Of a DNA stretch of 64,000 nucleotides, positions 55,494-56,579 are shown piece by piece. Under the pieces are notes generated by a model. That model was given only the letters and a program-made list of their open reading frames with translations, made no database searches and was not told where the DNA came from. Position numbers and translations under genes: made by a program. Origin of the DNA: Nitrospirota bacterium (GTDB lineage Bacteria > JACPQY01); NCBI GenBank assembly GCA_016180645.1, contig JACPAV010000007.1, forward strand, positions 140,951-204,950, in the 5' to 3' direction. Position 1 is the stretch's first letter; each line of letters begins with the position of its first letter.

Positions 55494-56579
55494 ATGAGCT
55501 CCATCGCCGTACTGGGCGCCGGGAGCTTCGGCACGGCTCTCGCCTATCTGCTCGGCTCCAAGGGCTTGGAGGTCAGGCTTTGGTGTCGTCGGAAAGACCA
55601 GGCGGAATCCATCCGGCAATCGCGCCGAAACCCCGACTACCTGGCCGATACGATTCTGCCGGCGAGTGTGGCGTCGACTTCGGACTTGGCCGCCGCCGTT
55701 CGGGGTGTCGAAACGGTCGTGCTGGTCACGCCCACGCACTCGCTACGGGAGACGATACGAACCGGGGGCGGATCGCTGGATGGGGCGAAGACGATTGTGT
55801 GCGCTTCGAAAGGAATCGAAAACGAAACCTTCCTGACGCCCACGCAAATCGTTCGATCGCTCCTTCCCGGATCGGATCGGCGCGTCGCCGCGCTTTCAGG
55901 CCCCAGCTTTGCCAAGGAAATCGTGCGCGGCGTTCCGACGGCCGTGACCATTGCCTCTCTGGCGCCGGAGACGGCGAAAGAGATGCAGGCCCTGTTCCGG
56001 ACGCCCACGTTCCGGACCTACACTTCGGGAGATCTGGTGGGGGTCGAACTGGGGGGCGCCATGAAGAACGTGATCGCCATCGCGGCGGGGATTTGCGACG
56101 GCCTTCAATTCGGTCACAACGCGCGCGCCGCGCTCATTACGCGGGGCTTGGCGGAAATTACCCGAATGGCCGTGCGTCTCGGCGCCGAACCGCTTACGCT
56201 GGCAGGGCTCTCCGGACTGGGCGATCTCGTGCTGACCTGCACGGGCGATCTGAGTCGAAATCGCACGGTGGGCCTCCGGTTGGGTCAGGGGGAATCGTTG
56301 GACGCGATCGTCAAAGGCATGCACATGGTCCCACCACCCGCAACAGGCCGCGGGGCGGCCTCCCGGCCACTCGGTTCGCCTGGCGAAACGGTTGCAGGTG
56401 GTGCGATGGTGGCGGAGGGCATACACACCGCCCGTTCGGCCCGCCACTTCAGCCGGAAGCAGGGGGTGGAGCTTCCGATCACGGAGAAAGTTTACGAAGT
56501 GCTGTACGAGGGACTCCCGCCGCGCCGGGCCGTCGAAGAGCTCATGGGGCGGGAACTGAGGGCGGAAAGTACCGGCTGA
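55494..56579 (+). CDS. gpsA: NAD(P)-dependent glycerol-3-phosphate dehydrogenase with an in-frame insertion
   Basis: A 361-residue enzyme that makes sn-glycerol-3-phosphate for phospholipids. The Rossmann loop is AVLGAGSFGTALAYLL, the substrate region SGPSFAKEIVRGVPTAV, the catalytic Lys in GGAMKNVIAIAAGI, and the helix SGLGDLVLTCTGDLSRNR. The usual continuation GMHMVAEG is interrupted after MHMV by 27 extra residues rich in Pro, Gly and Arg, encoded by a palindromic 81-bp insert, after which AEGIHTARSA resumes. The frame is kept, so the enzyme may still work. It overlaps the convergent receiver-like gene by 38 bp. Confidence 0.95.
   Translation: MSSIAVLGAGSFGTALAYLLGSKGLEVRLWCRRKDQAESIRQSRRNPDYLADTILPASVASTSDLAAAVRGVETVVLVTPTHSLRETIRTGGGSLDGAKTIVCASKGIENETFLTPTQIVRSLLPGSDRRVAALSGPSFAKEIVRGVPTAVTIASLAPETAKEMQALFRTPTFRTYTSGDLVGVELGGAMKNVIAIAAGICDGLQFGHNARAALITRGLAEITRMAVRLGAEPLTLAGLSGLGDLVLTCTGDLSRNRTVGLRLGQGESLDAIVKGMHMVPPPATGRGAASRPLGSPGETVAGGAMVAEGIHTARSARHFSRKQGVELPITEKVYEVLYEGLPPRRAVEELMGRELRAESTG
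56325..56410. mobile_element. In-frame palindromic insertion within gpsA, with 5-bp direct repeat
   Basis: ATGGT occurs at 56325-56329 and again at 56406-56410. Between them the outer arms caccacccgcaac (56332-56344) and gttgcaggtggtg (56391-56403) are inverted with one mismatch, and ggccgcggggcggcc is a further palindrome. The spacing of the direct repeats is 81 bp, 27 codons. The design recalls the Rickettsia palindromic elements, which insert in frame in genes. Confidence 0.75.

Follow-up and report, generated by a model that had tools for sequence, protein, structure and literature searches.

Identification of a palindromic insert in gpsA

The gpsA gene of the window (the whole 64-kb stretch of DNA that was analysed) carries a short palindromic insert. 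The window belongs to a draft genome of 4.7 Mb in 65 contigs, in which no second GpsA gene was found. The segment 56325–56410 consists of ATGGT, 76 bases and a second ATGGT, and lies within the stop-free gpsA frame. An earlier note, made from the sequence alone, had placed an insert here that adds 27 residues without breaking the frame, which was confirmed: the element with one duplicated triplet spans 81 bp, or 27 codons (VPPPATGRGAASRPLGSPGETVAGGAM), and corresponds to GpsA residues 279–305.

Table 1. Coordinates of gpsA and of the parts of its insert in the window.
Feature	Position	Strand	Basis
gpsA, NAD(P)-dependent glycerol-3-phosphate dehydrogenase, 361 aa; insertion host	55494..56579	+	Pfam NAD_Gly3P_dh_N and NAD_Gly3P_dh_C
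Left TGG, 3-bp target duplication	56326..56328	.	comparison of copies
Palindromic mobile element, 78 bp	56329..56406	.	copies and covariance model
Left arm TCCCACCACCCGCAAC	56329..56344	.	
First inner hairpin region	56346..56371	.	
Second inner hairpin CGGTTCGCC/GGCGAAACG	56372..56390	.	
Right arm GTTGCAGGTGGTGCGA	56391..56406	.	
Right TGG, 3-bp target duplication	56407..56409	.	comparison of copies

The same note had described the insert as a palindrome bounded by a five-base target repeat, and both descriptions hold in part. The arms are inverted and paired at 14 of 16 positions. They enclose a second inverted pair, and the architecture is that of a 16-bp closing stem enclosing two short hairpins rather than one long palindrome. 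ATGGT is present on both sides; the element begins at the T of the left ATGGT and ends at the A of the right one, which leaves TGG as the duplicated unit. Folded alone, the 88-nt strand is stable, though just moderately more stable than shuffled sequences (z = -1.75). The case for the element is made by its copies, not by folding.

Copies of the element in the genome

When compared with its own genome, the gpsA element matched over its full length in two other places (E = 2e-16) and partially in many. Genome matches and arm-pattern matches share 16-bp arms, YCCCACCACCYGMAAC and GTTKCRGGTGGTGGGR, and differ in the interior that these enclose. A covariance model built from the arms identified approximately 31 full copies in this genome, 7 copies in one genome of the same family but of a different genus, which is the only same-family genome compared, and none in 58 other genomes. 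This census and the matches at E = 2e-16 rule out a chance origin of the gpsA insert. A stringent pattern of the full element matched this genome only among 386 genomes, mostly of other families; the pattern is too strict, since it misses the 7 diverged copies in the same-family genome. No full copy was found in plasmids, and a search of Rfam returned nothing above the gathering score. The Rfam match to mir-3017 on the minus strand, which was below that score, is a generic hairpin match.

The copies begin with YCCCACC and are flanked by TGA or TCA. Their lengths are 60, 66, 71, 72, 74, 75, 77 and 78 bp (30 of 31 copies) and, once, 135 bp; the 135-bp copy (C20:17099, L070:1500-1634) has normal arms and long extra inner hairpins. 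Contig C20 (119 kb) bears 7 of the 31 copies and contig C25 (68 kb) bears 6 more, far above the genome average, and these two contigs may be mobile islands.

Several partial or distant forms were also observed. At C27:7104 (L075:1501-1530), the left half of the element follows an ATG and runs into an open frame (MTPPPATGSPGEPKSSK...); it may be a gene-start copy that has been truncated. A decayed copy on contig C19 (L244:1226-1330) is located at a TTGA stop/start overlap after a gene for a CtpA-like protease. It contains the unrelated palindromes GGGGAGCAGC and GGAGGACC, which suggests that other small palindrome families are present in the genome. Outside the two genomes, the IMG/VR contig IMGVR_UViG_3300049167_000222, whose genes look rhizobial, carries a 54-bp palindrome (L221:8423-8476) with arms identical to the family (CCCCACCACCCGAAAC) and without a target duplication; it may represent chance, a relative or a transfer.

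Target site and duplication

Identical 3-bp flanks (TGA/TGA, TCA/TCA, and TGG/TGG in gpsA) were observed in 21 of the 31 copies, whereas shuffling would lead one to expect 10.7 and in 20,000 rounds never gave more than 19; because the copies are related, this count, like those of frame and length given below, is not independent and is weakened. The exact 3-bp duplication is absent in the other 10 copies. No common match of the flanks extends beyond 3 bp, so that the five-base duplication of the earlier note is rejected. TGA and TCA are one target on opposite strands. In the TGA orientation, the preceding base is A in 20 of 29 copies, compared with 25% of the TGA sites in the window (binomial P ~1e-6). 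The window holds 1,886 TGA/TCA sites in 64 kb; start codons are therefore a few percent of the targets at most (an estimate, with ~60 genes).

Empty sites and other invaded genes

Relatives of GpsA align to residues 3–279 and then from approximately 299–306 on, and the insert is absent from all 35 aligned relatives. The nearest named GpsA relatives belong to Desulfobacterales and Myxococcales (~50% identity). The same-family genome reads GAG ATG AAA ATG GTG GCC GAG at this site, with one ATGGT compared with two in the window, and the empty site AAAATGGTGGCC of the other genus thus stands against the filled CACATGG(78 bp)TGGTGGCG. With the copy search and these alignments, the two outcomes that the earlier note had named as speaking against it, namely a non-palindromic insert in the relatives and the lack of any other copy in the genome, are both excluded.

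A second internal copy (C16:97414) lies in frame within the gene for NAD+ synthetase (NadE), at residues 467–491 inside the NAD_synthase domain, and encodes the peptide TPPPETGPTGRKLTAASGGVSGSGV. It is missing from relatives that align across the site, and the same-family genome matches residues 4–468 and 490–590. Copies also form in-frame C-terminal extensions of lipA, of a GT9 glycosyltransferase gene and of a gene with a TSCPD domain; for lipA, no match was found in the other genus. In contrast to the gpsA and nadE copies, the one situated between cheW and an MCP gene is common to both genera. There, TGA is present on each side and the arms are conserved, the interior has diverged, and the flanking proteins are 66–69% identical between the genera. 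The cheW copy in both genera, together with the empty gpsA and nadE sites in the other genus, indicates that the activity of the element spans the split of the genera.

Stem pairing and reading frame

In 19 aligned copies, 95.7% of the cells of the outer stem are paired. The outermost pair (5/85) is C-G in 9 and U-A in 8 sequences, and pair 17/73 is A-U in 9 and C-G in 8, showing that the arm sequences vary among copies while pairing is kept. In the predicted folds of 20 of the 31 copies, 12 or more pairs make up the closing stem, and exactly two hairpins are present.

The length of the element modulo 3 is 0 in 22 copies, 2 in 9 and 1 in none. One frame, which encodes a Pro/Ala/Gly-rich peptide (PPP[AE]T...VSGGGM), has no stop in 59 of the 62 strand readings, compared with a mean of 50.7 (maximum 59 in 1000 trials) when the interiors were shuffled and the arms kept. 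All five copies in gpsA, nadE, lipA, GT9 and the TSCPD gene are read in the identical phase, PPP[AE]T.

Predicted effect on the GpsA and NadE proteins

AlphaFold (AF2) models were computed with alignments of relatives. Mean pLDDT is 90 for GpsA, where the insert (278–303) is near 32, and 88 for NadE, where residues 469–487 are below 50. According to these models, both proteins would stay folded, with the inserts as disordered loops. In the human glycerol-3-phosphate dehydrogenase, a lid loop closes over the active site (PMC12874384). Alignment of the conserved VAEG to the QG after human 292-LNGQKL-297 would place the GpsA insert within the counterpart of this lid loop, which makes a kinetic effect on GpsA plausible. 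A guanylate kinase of Rickettsia that carries a Rickettsia palindromic element (RPE) is still active, with altered substrate affinity (PMC2229807).

Copies at gene starts

In at least 13 of the 31 copies, the last base of the element with the duplicated TG, or an ATG 3 bases on, begins the next gene. These genes, several of which were identified by Pfam or NCBIfam, encode CheW, NuoC, an AtpI-like protein, a TetR regulator, a HAD hydrolase, GT2 and GT4 glycosyltransferases, an Nramp transporter, a Toprim protein and a nucleoside hydrolase. In several gene-start copies, the upstream frame ends on the left TGA. The end of the element, AGGTGGTGGG, is purine-rich and Shine-Dalgarno-like, and can pair with the tail of 16S rRNA; the mean energy of its anti-Shine-Dalgarno duplex is -7.6 kcal/mol, compared with -3.8 kcal/mol for random 20-mers. 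The Shine-Dalgarno-like bases are paired in the closing stem in the mRNA. The element end may be used as an initiation region.

Search for a mobilising enzyme

Direct duplications of 3 bp point to an enzyme of the DDE type. DDE_Tnp_1 is absent from the genome of the window, and two are present in the other genus. Y1-family transposase genes number 7 in the former and 8 in the latter, and none of these 15 loci, with 1.5 kb of flank, contains a copy of the element. Three rve-type matches lie at loci without matching ends. No autonomous partner with the same ends was found among the PF01609, PF00665, PF07592 and PF01797 genes, and a search for ISAzo13 returned zero matches, as did its control, which leaves it uninformative. 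The mobilising enzyme may have been lost, may be unassembled or may belong to another family.

Two candidates were rejected. The only convergent arm pair of the same variant 1.8 kb apart (C19:134731/136517) is not an autonomous element; it consists of a decayed copy and a fortuitous match within SurA-like coding DNA. The Tn3-transposase-like protein beside the copy C25:56011 is not a mobiliser, as the similarity is just a 113-residue match in a SEC-C protein. As an observation in its own right, this contig encodes on the minus strand (L213:2092-3873) a 594-aa protein that combines a SEC-C motif with a fragment resembling the DDE domain of the Tn3 transposase and adjoins an element copy; it looks like a reused transposase fragment.

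Discussion

We consider the insert in gpsA to be one copy of a lineage-specific, non-autonomous MITE-like element of 60–135 bp (most copies 60–78 bp) that is moved in trans, cuts at TGA/TCA with duplication of 3 bp, and does little harm inside genes or at their starts (probability approximately 0.85). The 3-bp duplication at TGA/TCA follows from the compared copies and from the gpsA site that is empty in the other genus. A trans-acting enzyme would cut the target and duplicate the three bases, and the inserted element would fold on either strand into a closed stem, usually with two hairpins. The phase N-TG-A|YC-CCA-CCA-CC is nearly always stop-free on both strands, and the length is usually a multiple of 3. 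With such an open phase and length and a disordered peptide, which is presumably translated, an intragenic copy would become a tolerated loop (gpsA and nadE) or tail (lipA, GT9 and the TSCPD gene). At ATGA starts or stop/start junctions, the left duplicated TGA would keep the upstream stop; on the right side, the last element base and TG would rebuild the downstream start codon behind the purine-rich end. The gene-start positions would reflect a balance between targeting and selection.

More tentatively, the element may itself be adapted to translation. It would target ATGA starts and stop/start junctions, restore the upstream stop and the downstream start, supply its own Shine-Dalgarno-like sequence, and keep one frame open on both strands for intragenic copies. 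We regard this as a possibility somewhat short of even odds. If it were true, cheW would have co-opted the copy before it, which both genera retain, as its translation initiation region.

Another route of movement would be that of a REP-like palindrome mobilised by a Y1 (RAYT) HUH transposase, in which TGA would serve as the recognition triplet on one side and on the other would belong permanently to the element, rather than being a target duplication. Y1-family genes occur in both genomes, the elements are structured palindromes, and the flanking triplet is nearly always TGA/TCA. However, the Y1 genes have no element within 1.5 kb, non-TGA flanks can change on both sides together (TGG/TGG in gpsA and TTGA/TTGA at C2:294357), and the foot of the stem lacks the GTAG or CGTC tags that define two superfamilies of REPs (PMC3733652). 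This route is therefore unlikely.

Two further readings concern the gpsA insert itself. A native GpsA would result if the insert were skipped or removed before the protein is finished, either by bypass between the duplicated in-frame ATGs or by splicing. Bypassing elements with a flanking codon pair and a strong stem-loop are known, and the gpsA insert is flanked on both sides by an in-frame ATG and forms a strong stem-loop. Yet the internal copies of both gpsA and nadE are in frame and stop-free, which bypass would not need, and in the AlphaFold models the insert sits in a loop that the fold tolerates; we consider such removal very improbable. That the genome is a draft in 65 contigs could also suggest that the insert is an artefact of assembly or a protein loop specific to the lineage. 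This last reading is refuted by the copies: the same arms and unit occur at 31 unrelated places with target duplications, and one of these places (cheW) is common to a separate genome of another genus.

High frequencies of in-frame palindromes in core genes are known mainly for the Rickettsiales. The MITE-like element described here is an in-frame case from another lineage, in a genome of 4.7 Mb; its insertion signature is clear, filled sites can be set against empty ones, and the hosts include two core enzymes. The survival of selfish DNA inside proteins thereby becomes a testable question, and the rebuilt start codon at gene starts suggests that there is another means by which a mobile element can do no harm, or be of use.

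The earlier note had likened the insert to the RPEs. RPEs are multicopy palindromes found in intergenic DNA and in frame in conserved protein genes, with a preferred open frame and an unknown mobiliser (PMC2229807, PMC10969869), and have also been reported in Wolbachia. A review table lists them as palindromic, with ORFs and with an unknown target duplication (PMC2229807), and a review from 2024 describes in-frame fusion of MITEs as frequent in Rickettsia and conceivable elsewhere (PMC10969869). The likeness is borne out insofar as the present element is multicopy, is located in spacers and in frame in conserved genes (gpsA and nadE, and C-terminally in lipA, GT9 and the TSCPD gene) of a non-Rickettsia lineage, and is absent from the relatives. 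Membership of the RPE family does not follow from it. RPEs measure ~105–150 bp, whereas 30 of the 31 copies here measure 60–78 bp and one measures 135 bp; RPE hosts are Rickettsia and Wolbachia, whereas the host here belongs to a different lineage. Moreover, wholly intragenic copies (gpsA and nadE) are a minority and most copies are located at gene starts or junctions. Compared with RPEs, the element exhibits a clear 3-bp TGA/TCA duplication and a strong gene-start preference, and is GC-rich. We therefore classify it as a probable analogue of RPEs, forming a MITE-like family of its own that is set apart by length and host.

Several features of MITEs are present: 16-bp covarying terminal inverted repeats, a 3-bp target site duplication in 21 of 31 copies with an empty gpsA site, and short size (60–135 bp) in 31 copies without a transposase gene of their own. 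ORF-carrying MITEs (ERIC, the 107-bp form of Correia/NEMIS, YPAL and QMITE1 of Coxiella) are likewise short, with terminal inverted repeats, RNA stem-loops, some in-frame fusions and, in several, a target duplication (PMC2229807). They differ from the present element in that several have TA termini and most are mainly intergenic, and we found no description of one that sits precisely on a start codon and rebuilds the start. REPs and BIMEs resemble it as short palindromes with paired hairpins and with Y1 transposases in the same genome. Conversely, REPs are 20–40 bp long, extragenic and tagged with GTAG or CGTC (PMC3733652), whereas the present element has no tag, no adjoining Y1 gene and 3-bp direct flanks. 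What is new here is the target specificity, the preference for gene starts, and the built-in Shine-Dalgarno-like sequence and start codon.
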